Source of the DNA: Pseudomonadota bacterium
Lineage (GTDB): Bacteria > Pseudomonadota > Alphaproteobacteria > Acetobacterales > Acetobacteraceae
NCBI GenBank assembly: GCA_021807785.1
Contig: JAKBCO010000004.1
Span: forward strand, 1-33,755
Length of the DNA: 33,755 bases
Reading direction: 5' to 3'
This document shows, one piece after another, positions 1,725 to 14,058 of this stretch. Both the position numbers and the translations under genes were made by a program. The first letter of the stretch is position 1. Every line of letters starts with the position of its first letter. The notes beneath the pieces were generated by a model. The model saw only the letters and a list, made by a program, of their open reading frames with translations. It was not told where the DNA came from and did not search any database.

Positions 1725-2936
1725 TCAGATCACCCCCGCCTGCCGCAGCGCCGCGAGCCGCGCCGCGTCCAGCCCCAGCAGCGTGCCCAGCACCGCGTCG
1801 GTCTGCCCGCCCAGCAGCGGCGGGGCGTGGCGGTAATCGACCGGGGTTTCCGACAGCCGCACCGGGTTGGCGATCACCTTCACCGGCACGCCCGCGTCAT
1901 GGGCCATTTCCCGCAGCATCCCGCGCGCGATCACCTGCGGGTCGGCGAACACCTCGGCCAGCCGGTTGATCGGGCCGCAGCCGATCTTCAGCGCCTCCAG
2001 CCGGTCGATCCACCAGCCGGTGGGATGGGCTTGCAACACCGGGGTCAGGGTGTCGGTGACCAGCTGGCGGTTTTCCACCCGCGCCGCGTTGGTGGCGAAG
2101 CGCGGGTCCTCCAGCAGATGGGTCAGCGCGAAGGCCTCGCAGAAGCGCTTGAAGGTGGGGTCGTTGCCGATCGACAGCACGATATGGCCGTCGGCGGTGG
2201 GGAACACCTGGTAGGGCACGATGTTCGGGTGCTGGTTGCCCAGCCGCGGCGGGTTCTGGCCGGTGGCCAGAAAGTTCATGCCCTGGTTGGCCAGCCAGGC
2301 GACATGGGTGTCCAGCATCCCGATATCGATCTGCTGGCCCTGGCCGGTGGCCTCGCGGTGGCGCAGCGCGGCCAGGATGCCGATGCAGCCGTAGAGCCCG
2401 GCGAACAGATCGGCCACCGGCACGCCCACCTTCTGCGGCATCCCGTCCGGCTCGCCGGTCAGGCTCATCACCCCGCCCATGGCTTGGATCAGGCTGTCAT
2501 AGCCGGGGCGCGGCGCGTAGGGGCCGGTCTGGCCGAAGCCGGTGATGGAACAATAGATCAGCCCTGGATGTTTCGTATGCAGCTGCTGGTAGCCGAGCCC
2601 GTATTTCGCCAGCGCGCCGACCTTGAAGTTCTCCACCAGGATGTCGCAGCGCGCGATCAGCGCCCGCGCGAGCTCCTGCCCCTCGGGCGTGGCGATATCG
2701 AGCGTGACCGAGTGCTTGTTGCGGTTCACGCCGACGAAATAGGCGCTCTCCTTGGTGCCCGGCATCAGCGGCGGGGCGAAGCCGCGGGTATCGTCGCCGG
2801 CACCCGGGCGCTCGATCTTGATGACCTCGGCGCCGAGATCGGCCAGCATCTGGGTGCAGGTGGGGCCGGCGAGCACGCGCGTAAGGTCGAACACGCGCAG
2901 GCCGCGAAGCGGGCCGGTCGGGGTGGGTTCGGACAT
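1725..2936 (-). CDS. CaiB/BaiF family (class III) CoA-transferase
   Basis: MSEPTPTGPLRGLRVFDLTRVLAGPTCTQMLADLGAEVIKIERPGAGDDTRGFAPP...; typical family III N-terminus. Start at 2936 preferred over the longer ORF start at 3035. Confidence 0.92.
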   Translation of the reverse strand: MSEPTPTGPLRGLRVFDLTRVLAGPTCTQMLADLGAEVIKIERPGAGDDTRGFAPPLMPGTKESAYFVGVNRNKHSVTLDIATPEGQELARALIARCDILVENFKVGALAKYGLGYQQLHTKHPGLIYCSITGFGQTGPYAPRPGYDSLIQAMGGVMSLTGEPDGMPQKVGVPVADLFAGLYGCIGILAALRHREATGQGQQIDIGMLDTHVAWLANQGMNFLATGQNPPRLGNQHPNIVPYQVFPTADGHIVLSIGNDPTFKRFCEAFALTHLLEDPRFATNAARVENRQLVTDTLTPVLQAHPTGWWIDRLEALKIGCGPINRLAEVFADPQVIARGMLREMAHDAGVPVKVIANPVRLSETPVDYRHAPPLLGGQTDAVLGTLLGLDAARLAALRQAGVI

Positions 2937-3021
2937 GGGGGGGCCTTGGCTGCGAGGGGGGGCAAAATGGCGGCAGGAGTCGGCGCGGCGCAAGGGGGCG
3001 GTTGTCGCGGAGCGTCGGGCG

Positions 3022-3070
3022 TTGATCCACGTCATTGTGGCCCCACCCCAGGGACCTAACCTGTCGCCCC
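3022..3070 (+). promoter_or_regulatory. Predicted FNR/FixK-type class II promoter of the ppsA operon
   Basis: TTGATCCACGTCAT at 3022-3035 (8/10 matches to TTGAT-N4-ATCAA; centre 3028.5). -10-like TAACCT at 3057-3062 implies TSS near 3070, i.e. box centre about -41.5. RBS-like GAGGAGGGA at 3071-3079, ATG at 3086. Confidence 0.5.
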
Positions 3071-3085
3071 GAGGAGGGATCGGCC

Positions 3086-5476
3086 ATGCTGACCGAACAG
3101 TCGCTGGTACGCTGGTTCGCCACCCTGGGAATCGGCGATGTGGGCGAGGTCGGCGGCAAGACCGCCTCGCTCGGAGAACTCTATGGCCACATGGCGGGCG
3201 CCGGGGTGCGGGTGCCGAACGGGTTCGCGCTCACCGCGATCGCCTATCGCCAGGCGCTGACCGCTGCTGGAGCTTGGCCGCGCCTCCATGCGCTGCTCGA
3301 CCGGCTGGACGTGACCCACTTGCCAGCCCTGGCGAACGCCGCGGCGGCGGCCCGCGAGATCGTCCACGCCGCCACCGGCACCGAGATCCTGCGCGCGGCG
3401 GTCGCGGCGGGCTACGCGGAACTCGAACGAGAATACGGCGCCGCAGTCGCGGTCGCGGTGCGCAGCTCCGCCACCGCCGAGGACCTGCCCGATGCCAGCT
3501 TCGCCGGCCAGCACGAGAGCTTCCTCAACGTCACCGGCGCCGAGGCCGTGTTCGAGGCCTGCCGGCGCTGCTTCGCCTCCCTCTTCACCGACCGCGCAAT
3601 CGTCTATCGGGTCAATAACGGCTTCGACCATTTCCGGGTGGCGCTGTCGGTCGCGGTGATGAAAATGGTGCGCTCCGACGCGGCATCGAGCGGGGTGATC
3701 TTCACCCTGGATACCGAATCCGGCTTCCGCGACGTGGTGCTCCTGACCGGCGCCTGGGGCCTGGGCGAGAACGTGGTGCAGGGCGCGGTCGATCCAGATG
3801 AATTCGTGGTCCACAAGCCCACCTACCGCGCCGGGCATCGCGCCGTGCTGCGTCGCCGGCTGGGACAGAAGCAGATGACCATGGGCCTGGTCGAGGGCGT
3901 GACGCGCAACCTGCCGACCCCGCCCGAGCAACGGGCGCGCTACTGCCTGACCGATCCCGAGGTGTTGGAACTGGCCGGCGCCGCGCTGCGGATCGAGGAC
4001 CACTATTCCGCCGCCGCCGGCCATCCGCTGCCGATGGACATCGAATGGGCCAAGGATGCGGACGATGGTCAGCTCTATATCGTGCAGGCGCGGCCGGAGA
4101 CCGTCGCCTCCCGCCGCGCCGCGGGGATGCAGGAGACCTACGCCCTGACGCAGGACGCGACGCCGCTGGTGACCGGACGCGCGGTGGGCGAGAAGATCGC
4201 CGCCGGGGCGGTGCGCCTGGTGCGCGGCGCCGCCGACCTCGCCGCCTTCCGCCCGGGCGAGGTGCTGGTCGCCGAACAGACCAGCCCGGACTGGGAGCCG
4301 GTGATGAAGACCGCCGGCGCCATCGTCACCGACCATGGCGGGCGCACCTGCCACGCCGCAATCGTGGCGCGCGAGCTCGGCGTGCCGGCGGTGGTCGGCG
4401 CCGGCAATGCCACCGCGGCGCTGGAAGGCGGCACCGAGGTCACGGTCTCCTGCGCCGCCGGCGAACAGGGCGCCGTCTATGCCGGCCGGCTGCCGTTCGA
4501 GGTGACGCGGGTCGATCTGGGCGCGCTGGCGATGCCGAAGACGGCGATCATGGTCAATCTCGGCAACCCCGAGCGCGCCTTCCATACCGCCATGCTGCCC
4601 AATGAGGGCGTCGGACTGGCGCGGATGGAGTTTGTCATCAGCGAGCATATCGGCATCCACCCGATGGCGATCGAGCATCCGGAGCGGATCGCGCCGGCCG
4701 CGCGCGCCGCCATCGCCGCGCGCGCGGGCGCGGATGCCTCGCCGCGCGAGTTCTTCATTCGCGCCTTGTCCGAAGGCATCGGCACCATCGCCGCCGCCTT
4801 CTTCCCGCGCCCGGTGATCGTGCGCCTGTCCGACTTCAAGACCAACGAATACGCAGCCCTGATCGGCGGCGCGGCGTTCGAGCCGGTGGAAGCCAACCCG
4901 ATGCTCGGCTTCCGCGGCGCGGCGCGCTACGCCCATCCGGCCTATCGCGAGGGTTTCGCGCTCGAATGCGCCGCGCTTTCGCGGGTGCGCCGCGAGATGG
5001 GCCTGACCAATCTGCTCATCATGGTCCCGTTCTGCCGCCGCGTCGCCGAGGCCGAGACGGTGCTGGCCGAGCTGGCGCGCAACGGCCTGCAACGCGGCCA
5101 GGACGGGCTCGAGATCTATGTGATGTGCGAGATCCCGAACAACGTGATCCAGATCGACGCCTTCGCCCGCGTGTTCGACGGGTTCTCGATCGGCTCCAAC
5201 GACCTGACCCAGCTGACGCTCGGCGTCGATCGCGATTCCGACATCGTCGCCTTCGATTTCGACGAGCGCGATCCCGGCATGATCGAAATGCTGCGCCTCG
5301 CGGTGACCGGTGCGCACCGCAACGGCCGCAAGGTGGGCATCTGCGGCGAGGCCCCGGCCAACTACCCCGAGCTGGCGCGCTTCCTGGCCGGGATCGGCAT
5401 CGACTCGATCAGCGTCAATCCCGGCAGCGTGCTGCGCACGATCGCCGAGGTCCGCGCCGCCGAAGGCGCCGGATGA
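3086..5476 (+). CDS. ppsA: Phosphoenolpyruvate synthase (pyruvate, water dikinase)
   Basis: MLTEQSLVRWFATLGIGDVGEVGGKTASLGELY...; SSATAEDLPDASFAGQHESFLNV, phosphohistidine motif GGRTCHAAIVARELGVPAVVG, C-terminal GICGEAPANYPELARFLAGIGIDSISVNPGSV. Upstream RBS supports start 3086 over 3035. Confidence 0.95.
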   Translation: MLTEQSLVRWFATLGIGDVGEVGGKTASLGELYGHMAGAGVRVPNGFALTAIAYRQALTAAGAWPRLHALLDRLDVTHLPALANAAAAAREIVHAATGTEILRAAVAAGYAELEREYGAAVAVAVRSSATAEDLPDASFAGQHESFLNVTGAEAVFEACRRCFASLFTDRAIVYRVNNGFDHFRVALSVAVMKMVRSDAASSGVIFTLDTESGFRDVVLLTGAWGLGENVVQGAVDPDEFVVHKPTYRAGHRAVLRRRLGQKQMTMGLVEGVTRNLPTPPEQRARYCLTDPEVLELAGAALRIEDHYSAAAGHPLPMDIEWAKDADDGQLYIVQARPETVASRRAAGMQETYALTQDATPLVTGRAVGEKIAAGAVRLVRGAADLAAFRPGEVLVAEQTSPDWEPVMKTAGAIVTDHGGRTCHAAIVARELGVPAVVGAGNATAALEGGTEVTVSCAAGEQGAVYAGRLPFEVTRVDLGALAMPKTAIMVNLGNPERAFHTAMLPNEGVGLARMEFVISEHIGIHPMAIEHPERIAPAARAAIAARAGADASPREFFIRALSEGIGTIAAAFFPRPVIVRLSDFKTNEYAALIGGAAFEPVEANPMLGFRGAARYAHPAYREGFALECAALSRVRREMGLTNLLIMVPFCRRVAEAETVLAELARNGLQRGQDGLEIYVMCEIPNNVIQIDAFARVFDGFSIGSNDLTQLTLGVDRDSDIVAFDFDERDPGMIEMLRLAVTGAHRNGRKVGICGEAPANYPELARFLAGIGIDSISVNPGSVLRTIAEVRAAEGAG

Positions 5477-5477
5477 C

Positions 5478-6419
5478 ATGACCCGGCGGATCGTCACCCT
5501 GACGCTCAATCCGGCGGTTGACTTGGCGACCGTCGCCCCGCGCATCGTGCCGACGCACAAGATCCGTACGCGCGGCGAGGAGGTCGATCCCGGCGGCGGC
5601 GGCATCAATGTCGCCCGGGTGATCCATGCGCTGGGCGGGGACGCGCTGGCGGTACTGGCCGAAGGCGGCGCCACCGGCCGCTTTCTGACCGAACTGCTGG
5701 AGGAAGCGGGCGTACCCTTCCGCGCCGTGCCGATCCGCGGGCGCACCCGGGTGTCCTTCGCGGTGCGGGAGGCGGCCACCGGGCAGGAGTACCGGTTCGT
5801 TCCCGAAGGCCCGACCCTGACGGAAGCGGACTGGCGCGCGGCGGTCGAGACGGCGCTGGCCGAGCCGGGCGAATTCCTGGTGCTGAGCGGCAGCCTCCCG
5901 CCAGGCGTGCCGGCGACAGCCTATGCCGAGATCGCGCGCCGCGCCGCCGCGGCCGGGCGGCGGGTGGCGCTGGACAGTTCCGGCCCGGCGCTGGCCGCCG
6001 CGCTGGCGCCAGGGGGGGCGCCTGGACTCGATCTGATCAAGCCGAGCCTGGGCGAGCTGGAGGCCCTGATCGGTCGCGCGCCGGCCGATCCGGCCGCCGA
6101 GGCCGCCGCGCTCGTGCGCGCCGGCGCGGCGCGGATGGTGGCGGTGACGCTGGGTGCCGAAGGCGCGCTGCTGGCCAGCCGGGACGGCGTGCTGCGCCGC
6201 CCGGCGCTGCCGGGGAGGGTGCGAAGCGCGGTCGGCGCGGGCGATGCGTTCCTCGGCGGGCTGGTGTTCGCGCTCGCGGGCGGCGCCGCGCCGGCGCTCG
6301 CGCTCGATTGGGCGCTCGCCGCCGGCGCCGCCGCGGTCGGCGGGGTCGGCACCGCGCGCCTGACCCGCGCCGACGTGCTTGCCCGCCTGCCCGCCGGATC
6401 GGAGCTTTCCGAATGTTGA
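5478..6419 (+). CDS. pfkB: PfkB-family sugar kinase, probable 6-phosphofructokinase II / 1-phosphofructokinase
   Basis: MTRRIVTLTLNPAVDLATVAPRIVPTHKIRTRGEEVDPGGGGINVARVIHALGG... with DPGGGGINVAR and C-terminal VGAGDAFLGG catalytic motif. 1 nt after ppsA stop. Confidence 0.9.
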   Translation: MTRRIVTLTLNPAVDLATVAPRIVPTHKIRTRGEEVDPGGGGINVARVIHALGGDALAVLAEGGATGRFLTELLEEAGVPFRAVPIRGRTRVSFAVREAATGQEYRFVPEGPTLTEADWRAAVETALAEPGEFLVLSGSLPPGVPATAYAEIARRAAAAGRRVALDSSGPALAAALAPGGAPGLDLIKPSLGELEALIGRAPADPAAEAAALVRAGAARMVAVTLGAEGALLASRDGVLRRPALPGRVRSAVGAGDAFLGGLVFALAGGAAPALALDWALAAGAAAVGGVGTARLTRADVLARLPAGSELSEC

Positions 6420-8044
6420 AACGCAGCGACATGACCCGCGCGCTCGATCTGACCGCGGCGCCGGGCGCCGGGCCGGTGCGCACCCGCCGTCCGGTCTATC
6501 GGGACCTGTTGCCGCCCTGCAACGAGGCCTGCCCGGCCGGCGAGGACATCCAGGCCTGGCTCGCGCTCGCCCAGGCCGGACAGTATCGCGCCGCCTGGGA
6601 AAAGCTGGTCGAGGCCAATCCGCTGCCGGGAACGCATGGGCGGGTCTGCTACCACCCGTGCGAATCCGCCTGCAACCGCAACGAACTGGACGACGCGGTG
6701 AGCATCCATGCGGTGGAACGCTTCCTCGGCGACGCGGCGCTGGCCGCGCGCTGGCCGTTGCCGCGCGGCGCGGCGGACAGCGGCAAGCGGGTGCTGGTCG
6801 TCGGCGCCGGTCCCTCGGGGTTGTCCGCCGGCTATCATCTGCGCCGCCTGGGGCACGCGGTGGATCTGCACGAGGCCGGGCCGGTGGCCGGCGGGATGCT
6901 GCATTTCGGCATCCCCGCCTATCGCCTGCCGCGCGCCGGACTGGCCGCCGAGATCGCGCGGCTGGAGGAGTACGGCGTGCGCATCCGCCGCGACAGCAAG
7001 GTGGAGGACCTGCTGGCCCTGCGCGAGGCCGGCGGGTTCGACGCGGTATTCGTCGCCATCGGCGCGCAGCTCTCCCAGCATGTCGGCATCCCGGCGCGCG
7101 ACGCGGCGCGGGTGCTGGACGCGGTGGCGCTGCTGCGCGACGTCGCCGCCGGCGAGCGCCCGCTGCTCGGCCGCCGCGTCGTGGTCTATGGCGGCGGCAA
7201 CACGGCGATGGACGCGGCGCGCACCGCGCGGCGCCTGGGCGCGGCGGAGACCATGATCGTCTATCGCCGCGACCGCGCGCACATGCCGGCGCACGAATTC
7301 GAGGCCGACGAGGCGCTGTCCGAAGGCGTGAAGATCCGCTGGCTGACCTCCATCCGCGAGATCGCCGGTCCCGACCTCACGGTGGAGCGGATGGCGATCG
7401 ACGCCGAGGGCCGCCCGCATCCCACCGGCGAGATCGAGACCTTGTCGGCCGACGCGGTGGTGCTGGCGCTGGGCCAGGCGACCGATAGCGGCTTCCTCGC
7501 CCGTGTTCCCGGCCTCGTGCGTCGCCCGGACGGCACGGTCGAGGTCGGGCCCGATCTGATGACCGGCCATGCCGGCATCTTCGCCGGCGGCGACGCGATC
7601 CCGGCGCAGCGCAGCGTCACCGTCGCGGTCGGCCATGGCAGGCAAGCGGCACGCCAGATCGATGCCTGGCTGCGCGGCGCGACGCATGAGGAGGTGCCGC
7701 CGCCGTCACGCGTCGGCTTCGCCATGCTCAACCTGCCGGTATTCAGCGACGCCGATCCGGCGGCGCAGCGCCAGCGCCCGCTCGCCGAGCGCGACGGCTT
7801 CGCCGAGATCGCCGAGGGCCTCGCCGAACGCGAGGCGCGGCGGGAGGCGCAACGCTGCCTGTCCTGCGGCGTCTGCTTCGAATGCGACAATTGCTGGGCC
7901 GCCTGCCCGGAGGATGCGATCGTCAAGCTCGGCCCCGGCAACCGCTACCGCTACGACTATGCGCGCTGCACCGGCTGCGCCGTCTGCTTCGAGCAATGTC
8001 CCTGCCATGCCATCGGCATGGAACCCGAGCCGGCGGAGGGCTGA
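6413..8044 (+). CDS. GltD/DsrL-like FAD- and NAD(P)-binding oxidoreductase with C-terminal Fe-S ferredoxin-type domain
   Basis: N-terminal CNEACPAGEDIQAW...CYHPCESACNRNELDDAVSIHAVERF, two Rossmann GxGxxG motifs (VLVVGAGPSGLSAGYHL; VVVYGGGNTAMDAARTARRLG), C-terminal CLSCGVCFECDNCWAACPEDAIVKLGPGNRYRYDYARCTGCAVCFEQCPCHAI. ATG overlaps pfkB stop (ATGTTGA). Confidence 0.9.
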   Translation: MLKRSDMTRALDLTAAPGAGPVRTRRPVYRDLLPPCNEACPAGEDIQAWLALAQAGQYRAAWEKLVEANPLPGTHGRVCYHPCESACNRNELDDAVSIHAVERFLGDAALAARWPLPRGAADSGKRVLVVGAGPSGLSAGYHLRRLGHAVDLHEAGPVAGGMLHFGIPAYRLPRAGLAAEIARLEEYGVRIRRDSKVEDLLALREAGGFDAVFVAIGAQLSQHVGIPARDAARVLDAVALLRDVAAGERPLLGRRVVVYGGGNTAMDAARTARRLGAAETMIVYRRDRAHMPAHEFEADEALSEGVKIRWLTSIREIAGPDLTVERMAIDAEGRPHPTGEIETLSADAVVLALGQATDSGFLARVPGLVRRPDGTVEVGPDLMTGHAGIFAGGDAIPAQRSVTVAVGHGRQAARQIDAWLRGATHEEVPPPSRVGFAMLNLPVFSDADPAAQRQRPLAERDGFAEIAEGLAEREARREAQRCLSCGVCFECDNCWAACPEDAIVKLGPGNRYRYDYARCTGCAVCFEQCPCHAIGMEPEPAEG

Positions 8045-8045
8045 G

Positions 8046-11000
8046 ATGGCCATACGCGCCACCATGGACGGCAACACCGCGGTCGCCCATGTCGCCTACC
8101 GGGTGAACGAGGTCTGCGCGATCTTCCCCATCACGCCCTCGTCCACCATGGCCGAGCTGGCCGACGAATGGGCCGCCGAAGGGGTGCGCAATCTCTGGGG
8201 CGGCGTGACCGTGGTGCAGGAGATGCAAAGCGAGGGCGGCGCCGCGGGCGCGGTGCATGGCGCGCTGCAATCGGGCGCGCTGACCACCACCTTCACCGCC
8301 TCCCAGGGCCTGCTGCTGATGCTGCCCAACATGTTCAAGATCGCGGGCGAACTGACGCCGACGGTGTTCCATGTCGCGGCACGCGCGGTGGCGACCCAGG
8401 CGCTGTCCATTTTCGGCGATCATTCCGACGTGATGGCGGTGCGCGCCGCCGGCTTCGCCCAGCTCTGCTCGGCCTCGGTGCAGGAGGCGCACGATCTGGC
8501 GCTGATCGCGCAGGCCGCCACCCTGGCCGGGCGGCTGCCGGTGCTGCATTTCTTCGACGGGTTCCGCACCTCGCACGAGTTGAACACGCTCGATCTGATC
8601 GACGACGCCACCTTGCGGGCGATGATCGACGAGCGGCTGGTGCGCGCGCACCGCGCCCGCGCGCTCGACCCCGAGCACCCGGTGGTGCGCGGCACGGCGC
8701 ATAACCCGGACACGTTCTTCCAGGCGCGCGAGACCGCCAACCCGTTCTATGCCGCGATGGGCGGGCATGTGCGCGCGGCGATGGATCGCTTCGCGGCGCT
8801 GACCGGGCGGCGCTACGGCCTGGTGCAGTACGACGGCGCGGCGGATGCGGACCGGGTCATCGTGGTCATGGGCAGCGCCGCCGAGACGGCGCGCGCCACC
8901 GCCGCAGCACTCGGCGATCAGCGCCTGGGCGTGCTGCAGCTGCGCCTGTTCCGCCCGTTCCCGACCGAGGACTTCCTGGCCGCGCTGCCGCGAAGCACGA
9001 CGCGCATCGCGGTGCTGGAACGCACCAAGGAGCCGGGTGCGCCGGGCGAGCCGCTCTATCAGGACGTGATCGCCACCCTGGCACAGGCTCATGCGGCCGG
9101 GGACATCGCCGCCATGCCGCGCGTCGCCGGCGGGCGCTTCGGGCTGTCGTCGAAGGATTTCACTCCGGCGATGGCCAAGGCAGTGTTCGATCACCTGGCC
9201 CAGGCGGCGCCGCGCCACGGCTTCACGGTGGGCATCGAGGACGACGTCTCCCACACCAGCCTGAAGGTCGATCCGGAGTTCACGATCGAGCCGGACGACG
9301 AGGTGCGCGCGATCTTCCTTGGCCTCGGCGCCGACGGCACGGTGGGCGCCAACAAGAACAGCGTGAAGATCATCGCCGAGGATGCCGGGCGCTACGCGCA
9401 GGGTTATTTCGTTTATGATTCGCACAAATCCGGCGCCGAGACCGTGTCCCATCTGCGCTTCGGGCCGCGCCCGATCCACGCGCCCTATCTGATCGAGCGG
9501 GCCAATTTCCTCGCCTGCCACCATTGGGGCTTCGTCGGCCGGCGCGACGTCCTGCGTTCCGCCGCGCCCGGCGCCACGGTGCTGCTGAACAGCCCGCACG
9601 GGCCGGCGGAGGTCTGGGACCGGCTGCCCCGCGCGGCGCAGGAGCGTATCCTGGCGCTCGGGCTGCGCCTGTTCGTGATCGACGCCTCGCGCACCGCGCA
9701 GGAGGTGGGGTTGCGCGGGCGCACCAACACCATCCTGCAGACCTGCTTCTTCGCCATCGCCGGCGTGCTGGGGCGCGAGGCGGCGATCGAGCGCATCAAG
9801 GCGGCGATCCGCAAGACCTACGCCGCCAAGGGCGAGGCGGTGGTGCAGGCGAATTTCCAGGCGGTGGACGGCACCCTGGCGCGGCTCGCCGAGGTGCCGA
9901 TCCCCGCCGCCGCCACCGCGAACTGGGACCGCCCGCCGCCGGTGCCGGCGGATGCGCCGGAATTCGTCCGCCGCGTCACGGCGGCGATGCTGGACGGGCG
10001 CGGCGACGCGATCCCGGTCGGCGCGCTGCCGGTGGACGGCACCTTCCCGCCCGGCACCGCCGCCTACGAGAAGCGCGACATCGCCGAGGAGGTGCCGGTC
10101 TGGGACGCCGAGGCCTGCGTGCAATGCGGCCAGTGCGGCTTCGTCTGCCCGCACGGCGTGATCCGCGGCAAATACTACGACGCGGCGCGGCTGGCGGGCG
10201 CACCCGCAGGGTTCCGCTCCGCCCCCATCAACGCGCGCGGCTTTCCCGACGTCGCCTTCACCTTGCAGCTCTATCTGGAGGACTGCACCGGCTGCGGGCT
10301 TTGCGTCGAGGCCTGCCCGACGCCGAGCCTGGCCGATCCGGCGCGCAAGGCGATCGACCTCGCGCCCAAGGGCGACCGCGCGCACGCCGAACGCCCGCGC
10401 ATCGCCTTCTTCGAGGGCCTGCCGGTGAACGACCGCGCGCGGGTGGATTTCGCCACCGTGCGCGGCGTGCAGTTCCTGGAGCCGCTGTTCGCCTTCTCCG
10501 GCGCCTGCGCCGGCTGCGGCGAGACGCCCTATCTGAAACTGCTGTCGCAGCTGTTCGGCGATCGGATGATGGTGGCCAACGCCACCGGCTGCGCCTCGAT
10601 CTATGGCGGCAACCTGCCGGTCACGCCCTGGAGCCAAAACGCCGAGGGGCGCGGCCCGGCCTGGTCCAACTCGCTGTTCGAGGACAACGCCGAATTCGGC
10701 CTCGGCTTCCGCCTGGCCGCCGATCAGCATCTCGACCTGGCGCGCCGTCTGGCCGAGCGTCTGGCCCCGCGCCTCGGCGCCGAGCTGGTGGCGGAGACGC
10801 TGGCCGCGCCGCAGCGGCGGGAGTCCGAAATCCGCGCCCAGCGCGCGCGGCTGGCCGAGCTGACCCGTCGCGCCGCGGCGCTGGACGCGGAGGAAGGGCG
10901 CGAATTCCTCTCGGTCGCCGACCATCTGATCCGGCGCAGCGTCTGGATCGTCGGCGGCGACGGCTGGGCCTACGATATCGGCTATGGCGGGCTGGATCAT

Positions 11001-11615
11001 GTGCTGGCCAGCGGACGCGACGTGAACCTGCTGGTGCTGGACACCGAGGTCTATTCCAACACCGGCGGGCAGTCCTCCAAGGCGACGCCGCTCGGCGCGA
11101 TCGCCAAGTTCGCCGCCGCCGGCAAGCGCACGGCGCGCAAGGACCTGGCGCTGCAAGCCATCGCCTACGGCAATGTCTATGTCGCGCAGGTGGCGATGGG
11201 CGCCAATCCGCAACAGACCCTGATCGCCTTCCGCGAGGCCGAGGCCTATCCCGGCCCGTCGCTGATCCTGGCTTATTCGCATTGCATCGCGCATGGCTAC
11301 GATCTGCGCCACGGGCTGCGCCAGCAGGATCTGGCCGTGGCCTGCGGCTACTGGCCGCTGTTCCGCTACAATCCGGCGATGCGCGGCGTGGGGGAAAATC
11401 CGTTCCGGCTGGATTCGCCGCGGCCGACGATCCCGTTCCGCGACTATGCGTATCGGGAGACCCGATACCGCGCGTTAGCGGACACCCGCCCCGAGGAGGC
11501 GGCGCAATTGCTGGCCGCGGCGCAGGTGGCGGTGACCGAGAAATACCGCAGCTACGAGGACATGTCGGGCTGGCAGGCGACACGCTTCCACCCGCCGGTT
11601 CCGGCAGCGGGATAG
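8046..11615 (+). CDS. nifJ: Pyruvate:ferredoxin (flavodoxin) oxidoreductase, full-length single-chain type
   Basis: 1189 aa: MDGNTAVAHVAYRVNEVCAIFPITPSSTMAELADEWA; two ferredoxin motifs (ACVQCGQCGFVCPHGVIR, DCTGCGLCVEACP); SGACAGCGETPYLKLLSQLFGDRMMVANATGCASIYGG; TPP motif GDGWAYDIGYGGLDHVLASG; YSNTGGQSSKATPLGA. Confidence 0.96.
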   Translation: MAIRATMDGNTAVAHVAYRVNEVCAIFPITPSSTMAELADEWAAEGVRNLWGGVTVVQEMQSEGGAAGAVHGALQSGALTTTFTASQGLLLMLPNMFKIAGELTPTVFHVAARAVATQALSIFGDHSDVMAVRAAGFAQLCSASVQEAHDLALIAQAATLAGRLPVLHFFDGFRTSHELNTLDLIDDATLRAMIDERLVRAHRARALDPEHPVVRGTAHNPDTFFQARETANPFYAAMGGHVRAAMDRFAALTGRRYGLVQYDGAADADRVIVVMGSAAETARATAAALGDQRLGVLQLRLFRPFPTEDFLAALPRSTTRIAVLERTKEPGAPGEPLYQDVIATLAQAHAAGDIAAMPRVAGGRFGLSSKDFTPAMAKAVFDHLAQAAPRHGFTVGIEDDVSHTSLKVDPEFTIEPDDEVRAIFLGLGADGTVGANKNSVKIIAEDAGRYAQGYFVYDSHKSGAETVSHLRFGPRPIHAPYLIERANFLACHHWGFVGRRDVLRSAAPGATVLLNSPHGPAEVWDRLPRAAQERILALGLRLFVIDASRTAQEVGLRGRTNTILQTCFFAIAGVLGREAAIERIKAAIRKTYAAKGEAVVQANFQAVDGTLARLAEVPIPAAATANWDRPPPVPADAPEFVRRVTAAMLDGRGDAIPVGALPVDGTFPPGTAAYEKRDIAEEVPVWDAEACVQCGQCGFVCPHGVIRGKYYDAARLAGAPAGFRSAPINARGFPDVAFTLQLYLEDCTGCGLCVEACPTPSLADPARKAIDLAPKGDRAHAERPRIAFFEGLPVNDRARVDFATVRGVQFLEPLFAFSGACAGCGETPYLKLLSQLFGDRMMVANATGCASIYGGNLPVTPWSQNAEGRGPAWSNSLFEDNAEFGLGFRLAADQHLDLARRLAERLAPRLGAELVAETLAAPQRRESEIRAQRARLAELTRRAAALDAEEGREFLSVADHLIRRSVWIVGGDGWAYDIGYGGLDHVLASGRDVNLLVLDTEVYSNTGGQSSKATPLGAIAKFAAAGKRTARKDLALQAIAYGNVYVAQVAMGANPQQTLIAFREAEAYPGPSLILAYSHCIAHGYDLRHGLRQQDLAVACGYWPLFRYNPAMRGVGENPFRLDSPRPTIPFRDYAYRETRYRALADTRPEEAAQLLAAAQVAVTEKYRSYEDMSGWQATRFHPPVPAAG

Positions 11616-12196: not shown

Positions 12197-12931
12197 GTGT
12201 CCAGCACCGCCCCCATGATGATGCTTCGAGTCCGCGGCCGGTCCTTCATGGCCCTGGTCCTGGCGCCCGAACCGCCGCTGGCGGGCTGGCTCGGCGCGCT
12301 CGACGCGCAGATCACCCGCGCCCCCGGCTTTTTCGATGGCCGCCCGGTGCTGATCGACCTCGGCGCCCTGCCGCCCGAGCAGCCCGACGTGGCCGGCCTG
12401 CTGCAATCCCTGGCCGATCGCGGCATCCGCATCATCGGCACCGAGGGTGCCCATAAATCCTGGGCCGGCGTGGCCCGCTGGGGCGGCAGCCTCGGCCCGC
12501 CGCCGCCGCCCGGCGCCGCTCCGGCGCGGGGCGGGCGGACGGTAGAAATCGCCGATGCCCCGAAACCGGCCGCCCCCCTGCCCGACGCCGCTCCGGCGGC
12601 CGCGCCCGCCCTGCTGATCGATCGCGCGGTCCGCTCCGGCCAGCAGATCGTTCACGAAGCCGGCGATGTCACCGTGCTGGGCGCGGTGGCCTGGGGGGCG
12701 GAGATCATCGCCGGCGGGTCCATCCACGTCTATGGTGCCCTGCGCGGCCGGGCGATCGCGGGACTCGGCGGCAACCGCGCCGCGCGCATCTTCTGCCGCC
12801 GGCTGGACGCGGAGCTGCTGGCGATCGACGGGGTCTATCGCACCGCCGAGGATCTCGATCCCGCCCTGGCCGGCCGCCCCGCGCAGGCCTGGCTCGAGGC
12901 CGAGTCGATGCTGCTCGGTCCGCTCGACTGA
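12197..12931 (+). CDS. minC: Septum site-determining protein MinC
   Basis: C-terminal DVTVLGAVAWGAEIIAGGSIHVYGALRGRAIAGLGGNRAARIFCRRLDAELLAIDGVYR is diagnostic of MinC; immediately upstream of minD. GTG start at 12197 or ATG at 12215. Confidence 0.94.
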   Translation: MSSTAPMMMLRVRGRSFMALVLAPEPPLAGWLGALDAQITRAPGFFDGRPVLIDLGALPPEQPDVAGLLQSLADRGIRIIGTEGAHKSWAGVARWGGSLGPPPPPGAAPARGGRTVEIADAPKPAAPLPDAAPAAAPALLIDRAVRSGQQIVHEAGDVTVLGAVAWGAEIIAGGSIHVYGALRGRAIAGLGGNRAARIFCRRLDAELLAIDGVYRTAEDLDPALAGRPAQAWLEAESMLLGPLD

Positions 12932-12955
12932 ACGATTGGGAAAGGAAACGACGCG

Positions 12956-13777
12956 ATGGCACAGGTGGTGGTGGTCACCTCGGGCAAGGGAGGGGTCGGC
13001 AAGACCACCTCCACCGCTTCCCTTGGCGCCGCGCTCGCCCAGAGCGGGGAGAATGTGGTGGTGGTCGATTTCGACGTCGGCCTGCGCAACCTCGACCTGG
13101 TGATGGGCGCCGAACGGCGGGTGGTGTTCGACCTGGTCAACGTGGTGCAGGGTGACGCCAAGCTGGCGCAGGCGCTGATCCGCGACAAGCGGCTCGAGAA
13201 CCTGTCCCTGCTGCCGGCCTCGCAGACCCGCGACAAGGACGCGCTCACCTCGGAAGGGGTCGAGCGGATCATCGGCGAACTGCGGGAGAGATTCGACTGG
13301 ATCCTGTGCGACAGCCCGGCCGGAATCGAGCGCGGCGCGACGCTTGCCATGCGCCACGCCGATCAGGCGGTGGTGGTGACCAACGCCGAAGTCTCCTCGG
13401 TGCGGGATTCCGACCGCATCATCGGCCTGCTCGATTCCAAGACCGAGAAGGCCGAGAAGGGCGGGCGCATCGACAAGCATCTGTTGCTCACCCGCTACGA
13501 CGCCGCCCGCGCCAGCCGCGGCGAGATGCTGAAGGTGGACGACGTGCTGGAAATCCTGTCGATCCCGCTGCTGGGGATCATCCCGGAAAGCCAGGACGTG
13601 CTGCGCGCCTCCAACCTCGGCGCGCCGGTGACCCTGGCCAGCCCCAACTCGGCGCCGGCGCGGGCCTATATCGAAGCCGCCCGCCGCCTCAAGGGCGAGC
13701 AGATCCAGATCATCCTGCCCGCGGCCGAGCCGCGCGGCTTCCTCGGCAAGCTGTTCGGACGGAGGGCGGTGGCGTGA
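12956..13777 (+). CDS. minD: Septum site-determining protein MinD (ATPase)
   Basis: [63 protein letters not shown]; deviant Walker A and C-terminal amphipathic [10 protein letters not shown]. Confidence 0.97.
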
Positions 13778-14058
13778 ACCTGCTGACGCTGTTTCGCCGG
13801 CGCCCGTCCGCACCCGTCGCGCGGGAGCGCCTGCAGGTGCTGCTGGCGCATGACCGCGGCGTCGTCGGCGGCTCCGACCTGATCGCGGTCCTGCAGGAGG
13901 AGATCCTGGCGGTCATCGCCAAGCACGTCGCGCTGGACCGCGACAAGGTGCAGATCAAGCTCGATCGTGGCGATCCGGTCTCCACCCTCGAGATCGACGT
14001 GGAAGTGCCGAGCCTCGCGCGCCCGCGGGAACGCGGACTGGCCACCGCCCGGCCGTGA
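13774..14058 (+). CDS. minE: Cell division topological specificity factor MinE
   Basis: GTG start overlaps minD stop (GTGA). [79 protein letters not shown]. Confidence 0.95.

Follow-up and report, generated by a model that had tools for sequence, protein, structure and literature searches.

The inverted repeat at 3022–3035 of the window—the whole 33,755-nt stretch of DNA analysed here—is very probably the operator of a class II FNR-activated promoter, at which the host FnrL would switch on the ppsA-PFOR operon under low oxygen. This reading is built on comparative sequence analysis: the box itself, how well it is conserved and spaced, the other boxes counted across the genome, and a regulator found to be encoded there. 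The 148 nt between the start of a divergent CoA-transferase gene and ppsA contain the box (TTGATCCACGTCAT), a −10-like hexamer (TAACCT) and a Shine-Dalgarno sequence (GAGGAGGGA), and the ppsA ATG lies 57 nt downstream of the box centre (Table 1).

Table 1 Features of the ppsA promoter region and of the genes around it, in window positions
Feature	Position	Strand	Basis
CoA-transferase family III gene, divergent	1725..2937	−	likely start ATG 2937
FNR/FnrL box TTGATCCACGTCAT	3022..3035, centre 3028.5	+	sequence, matrix scan, boxes of orthologs
−10-like hexamer TAACCT	3057..3062	+	sequence, 21 nt past box; recurrence in orthologs
Predicted transcription start	3069..3070	+	inferred from spacing of −10-like hexamer
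Shine-Dalgarno GAGGAGGGA	3071..3079	+	sequence
ppsA, phosphoenolpyruvate synthase, 796 aa	3086..5476	+	TIGR01418 1021 bits, cutoff 740
pfkB-family hexose kinase	5478..6419	+	TIGR03168 over cutoff; TIGR03828 (1-phosphofructokinase) below cutoff
GltD-like FAD/NAD(P) oxidoreductase, C-terminal PorD-like 4Fe-4S domain	6413..8044	+	
Pyruvate:ferredoxin oxidoreductase (PFOR/nifJ type)	8046..11615	+	TIGR02176 1627 bits, cutoff 911

The box matches TTGAT-N4-ATCAA at 8 of 10 positions, with mismatches at G10 and T14. Its left half is a perfect TTGAT and its right half, GTCAT, has one mismatch; under the alphaproteobacterial form of the consensus, TTGAY-N4-RTCAA, T14 is the sole departure among the ten positions. 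A preliminary description of this DNA had reported the 8/10 box with its imperfect second half-site, the TAACCT hexamer and a ribosome-binding site right after the predicted start, all of which we recovered in the sequence.

Judged by the 8/10 rule within the window alone, the motif is weakly above chance: allowing up to two mismatches to TTGAT-N4-ATCAA, five matches occur as compared to 1.88 expected, a count reached by 3 of 100 shuffles. A scoring matrix built from the 25 perfect boxes of the host genome ranks the box as the best site of the whole window (19.1 bits; next 14.1), just below the weakest of the perfect genomic sites (19.8–32.5 bits). The host assembly is a 3.2 Mb draft, 88% complete, in which the window is contig C7 (about 71% GC). 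Pattern searches of this genome returned 25 exact TTGAY-N4-RTCAA boxes versus one for a reversed control pattern, and 153 versus 37 sites when one mismatch was allowed. Over the host and five genus relatives, exact boxes and controls numbered 25/1, 14/0, 12/0, 49/0, 37/2 and 44/2, summing to 181 versus 5. Three of the host boxes read TTGATCCACGTCAA and differ from the window box in the last base alone.

The enrichment in the host genome (25 versus 1) lies ahead of low-oxygen genes. Genes behind the boxes—assigned by reading N-terminal sequences rather than by profile search—include hemN, two universal stress proteins (Usp), two CBS proteins, a host-attachment protein and fnrL, as well as a FixJ-like regulator, a cytochrome c, an acetate-type transporter and a CO/xanthine-dehydrogenase-type small subunit. 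A small membrane protein gene (MPEMRALCRWAATVS...) is present in two copies (L124, box 1501, and L137, box 472; G000:C64 and C214), both with the identical box TTGATCCACGTCAA at equal distance. An FNR box at ~2113 of L145 lies close to a gene with an N-terminal sequence similar to that of 6-oxocyclohex-1-ene-1-carbonyl-CoA hydrolase, which we take to belong to the anaerobic benzoyl-CoA pathway, and another at ~1501 of L129 lies near a BoxB-like gene, presumably of the aerobic hybrid pathway.

To assess conservation, as the preliminary description had proposed, we compared 60 relatives and counted ppsA orthologs with the 5’ end present. A perfect TTGAY-N4-RTCAA box was found just upstream of ppsA in 7/7 orthologs of 67–86% identity with an intact 5’ end, four from the same genus (G002, TTGACCCAGGTCAA; G001 and G005, TTGACGCAGATCAA; G004, TTGACCCAGATCAA) and three from the same family (G019, TTGACGCAGGTCAA; G024, TTGACCCACATCAA; G022, TTGATCGAGATCAA). 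A more distant ortholog from the same class (G050, 52% identity) also has a perfect box, TTGATCTGTATCAA, so that the inverted repeat is perfect at eight orthologous positions; a Caulobacterales ortholog (68% identity) carries TTGACGTCGATCAA. Of the four more distant orthologs whose 5’ end could be read, three (G010, G026, G042) showed no box upstream of ppsA, while G003, which lacks the 5’ end, and G051, matching over the N-terminal half only, are uninformative on this point. The gene upstream of the box varies among genomes while the box stays at the matching position before ppsA, implying that the box is tied to ppsA rather than to the adjacent gene. Lack of conservation in orthologs, an outcome that the preliminary description had named as refuting its reading, did not occur. 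Among the close orthologs, the window box departs furthest from the consensus, its GTCAT right half being confined to this genome, and it may be weaker than the boxes of the relatives.

We then counted TATAAT matches at each distance after the box, with p values from random cyclic shifts. In ppsA orthologs one clear −10-like peak emerged, at 22 nt (p 0.0016); 14 other promoters of the host regulon, taken separately, gave a peak at that distance too (p 0.0044). Hexamers in the orthologs are TAGCCT, TAGGCT or TATCCT at 21–22 nt, comparable to TAACCT at 21 nt in the window. Placing this hexamer at −12 to −7 would set the start at 3069 and the box centre at −40.5; the −41.5 of the preliminary description requires a start at 3070. 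Either predicted centre fits a class II layout, and the proposed class II spacing is supported by the recurrent hexamer. A generic sigma-70 scan found no promoter in the ppsA upstream region; in DNA of 70% GC, a promoter that depends on an activator and lacks a −35 box would be expected to escape such a scan.

The clearest candidate regulator among the host Crp/Fnr proteins is encoded at C184:12929-13639. It has the four cysteines expected for a 4Fe-4S cluster (CADC-x7-C, that is C-x2-C-x7-C, plus a fourth in RLC) and an ETVSR recognition helix of the E-x-x-S-R type, and it aligns with FixK2 (4i2o) and an FNR regulator (5cvr). NCBIfam FnrL is its best family, yet the score stays below the equivalog cutoff (NF045989, 161 versus 300 bits); by its sequence, the protein is FnrL-like/FnrN and not the Rhodobacter FnrL equivalog for which that model is named. 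The CxxC motif and the recognition helix are kept in genus relatives, and host fnrL has its own box, TTGATCTGGGTCAA, centred 59 nt upstream of the start. Two further host Crp/Fnr proteins were found. One is of a separate type and differs in its helix; the second, FtrB-like (L003, at G000:C108), is the sole additional candidate, its ExxSR recognition helix making it a possible competing or second reader of TTGA-type boxes. A FixK type, without N-terminal cysteines, was not found among the Crp/Fnr proteins of the 88% complete assembly. Of the FNR/FixK-like box put forward initially, the FNR part therefore stands, backed by a four-cysteine FnrL in the genome, and the FixK part found no support in this assembly: the likely regulator is the iron-sulfur type.

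On this basis we predict binding, activation and oxygen dependence, together with a start site and a transcript, as follows. When oxygen is low, FnrL, with four cysteines for an oxygen-labile 4Fe-4S cluster, would form an active dimer and bind 3022–3035. Sitting at about −41, it would substitute for a −35 element and contact RNA polymerase, which would use the −10 TAACCT and start at ~3069–3070. The resulting transcript would have a leader of ~16 nt with a strong Shine-Dalgarno sequence and span ppsA-pfkB-gltD-like-PFOR. Given that pfkB starts 1 nt after ppsA, that the GltD-like gene overlaps pfkB and that all four genes touch or overlap, their co-transcription is likely.

Downstream of PFOR lie minC-minD-minE, at 12197–14058. 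A near-box, TCGATCAGCGTCAA, at 5405–5418 and ~60 nt upstream of pfkB, was rejected as a second site: it scores 12 bits and falls within the ppsA 3’ end, where it encodes the peptide SISVN. The identical sequence occurs at the matching ppsA position in G003 and G004, where the distance to pfkB is larger by several hundred nt; its conservation is explained by that of the protein and thus probably reflects coding constraint.

Gene order in the relatives bears on which gene the box serves. Several of them keep box and ppsA without PFOR—none was found in the genomes of G024, G022 and G050, and in G019 it lies on another contig—so the box, as judged from this comparison, belongs primarily to ppsA, PFOR having joined the operon only in this genus. 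The order ppsA-pfkB-gltD-PFOR is kept in G001, G002, G003 and G004; additional sequence separates ppsA from pfkB in the latter two (holding a BON-like gene in G003). No box was found directly before PFOR in any of these four. Elsewhere the parts have boxes of their own. In other genera (G025 and G009), gltD-PFOR operons without ppsA follow a perfect box (TTGACCTGCATCAA), and a −10-like hexamer comes after it, TAGAAT at 22 nt or TAGTGT at 23 nt, and in G005 a pfkB-gltD-PFOR run lies away from ppsA behind a BON-like gene with its own perfect box. All three loci (L187, box 5436; L194, 4479; L192, 7086) combine a perfect FNR box with a −10-like element 22–23 nt downstream. Across these genomes, then, FNR boxes stand before much the same functions, and it is the arrangement of the genes that differs. 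The link between an oxygen sensor and an oxygen-labile PFOR that had been suggested for this promoter is genus-specific, as relatives have the box without PFOR and PFOR operons elsewhere have one of their own.

We consider it somewhat more likely than not that an ancestral FNR-controlled ppsA promoter captured pfkB, the GltD-like flavoprotein and PFOR in this genus, yielding a single low-oxygen pyruvate hub. Such a hub would convert pyruvate to PEP, and pyruvate to or from acetyl-CoA with reduced ferredoxin; other genera would keep the modules apart, some under their own FNR boxes, the regulon staying alike while operons are reshuffled. Beyond this group, the actinobacterium Mycobacterium attenuatum has a gltD-like gene, PFOR and ppsA grouped at one locus (L051 2789-11385), which suggests that the module also exists beyond Proteobacteria, where another regulator would govern it. 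DosR-like boxes were absent from two mycobacterial ppsA loci at up to five mismatches.

Could the box be a chance match without a regulatory role, or a site serving the divergent CoA-transferase only? About two 8/10 matches per window are expected by chance, and the CoA-transferase start is 92 nt from the box on the other side. Against both stands the ortholog comparison, in which the position before ppsA is conserved whatever the upstream gene, and we rejected the CoA-transferase as the target because its place is taken by varying neighbours while the box stays; the other 8/10 matches of the window also score far lower in the matrix. This comparison nearly refutes either version, which we regard as highly improbable. 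A decayed box, in which FNR control is ancestral and T at position 14 has left the window copy non-functional, would account for GTCAT in this genome only, next to perfect boxes in all close relatives. We hold such decay to be quite unlikely, as the box leads every other position of the window by 5 bits or more and has kept both its left half and its distance to the −10. Among known targets, moreover, FNR sites degenerate on one side are common.

It is also conceivable, if unlikely, that another host Crp/Fnr protein reads the box—the FtrB-like protein of G000:C108 or a FixK missing from the assembly—in which case the signal would not be direct oxygen sensing by FnrL. The E-x-x-S-R recognition helix of the former, the 88% completeness of the genome, a box at the FixJ-like regulator gene and the near identity of FixK and FnrN sites (PMC4999443) speak for such a reader. 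Set against these are an FnrL in the genome that has its full complement of cysteines and a box before its gene, the finding of no FixK in the host genome, and a survey in which the Rhodospirillales covered had FnrN only (PMC4999443). FnrL remains our preferred regulator of this promoter, a concrete candidate through which low oxygen would govern pyruvate metabolism. The group is little studied and probably related to Acetobacteraceae, a placement based on the closest named locus (L041, 72%).

In E. coli, class II FNR promoters carry a box near −41.5 followed by a −10 element, with no −35 box. The layout predicted here is alike, except that the consensus allows TTGAY/RTCAA. With FnrL/FnrN regulons (Rhodobacter FnrL, Rhodospirillales FnrN) the host shares the motif, a four-cysteine regulator, a box before the gene of the regulator itself and hemN as a target; by contrast, ppsA and pyruvate metabolism go unmentioned in the main text of an alphaproteobacterial comparative study (PMC4999443). 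Within the literature searched, of partial coverage, no description of FNR control of a ppsA-PFOR operon was found. The closest parallel is Bradyrhizobium diazoefficiens, where ppsA (blr4655) is a FixK2 target with the box TTGACCTGCCTCAA at −47, is 14.2-fold down in a fixK2 mutant and is activated by FixK2 in vitro (PMC9104804; target also in PMC6201568), and PEP synthase is among the microoxia-responsive proteins of Bradyrhizobium (PMC6515984). Both systems have a ppsA ortholog (window ppsA is 68% identical to Bradyrhizobium orthologs) whose start is closely preceded by a box of the Crp/Fnr family, activation at low oxygen (predicted here) and a regulon that also takes in hemN and genes for Usp, CBS and host-attachment proteins. 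They differ in the regulator—cluster-free FixK2 under FixLJ there, candidate FnrL here—in the box, TTGACCTGCCTCAA there, and in the operon, as ppsA is listed there without a multi-gene operon or linked PFOR, whereas pfkB, the GltD-like protein and PFOR follow it here. Crp/Fnr-type (FixK2) low-oxygen control of ppsA is thus already known in Bradyrhizobium, and what is new is PFOR added behind the box and an FnrL-type candidate regulator. For the specialist this is confirmation and extension more than surprise: a regulon content (ppsA, Usp, CBS, hemN) common to FnrL-type and FixK2-type bacteria, with a changing operon behind the promoter.
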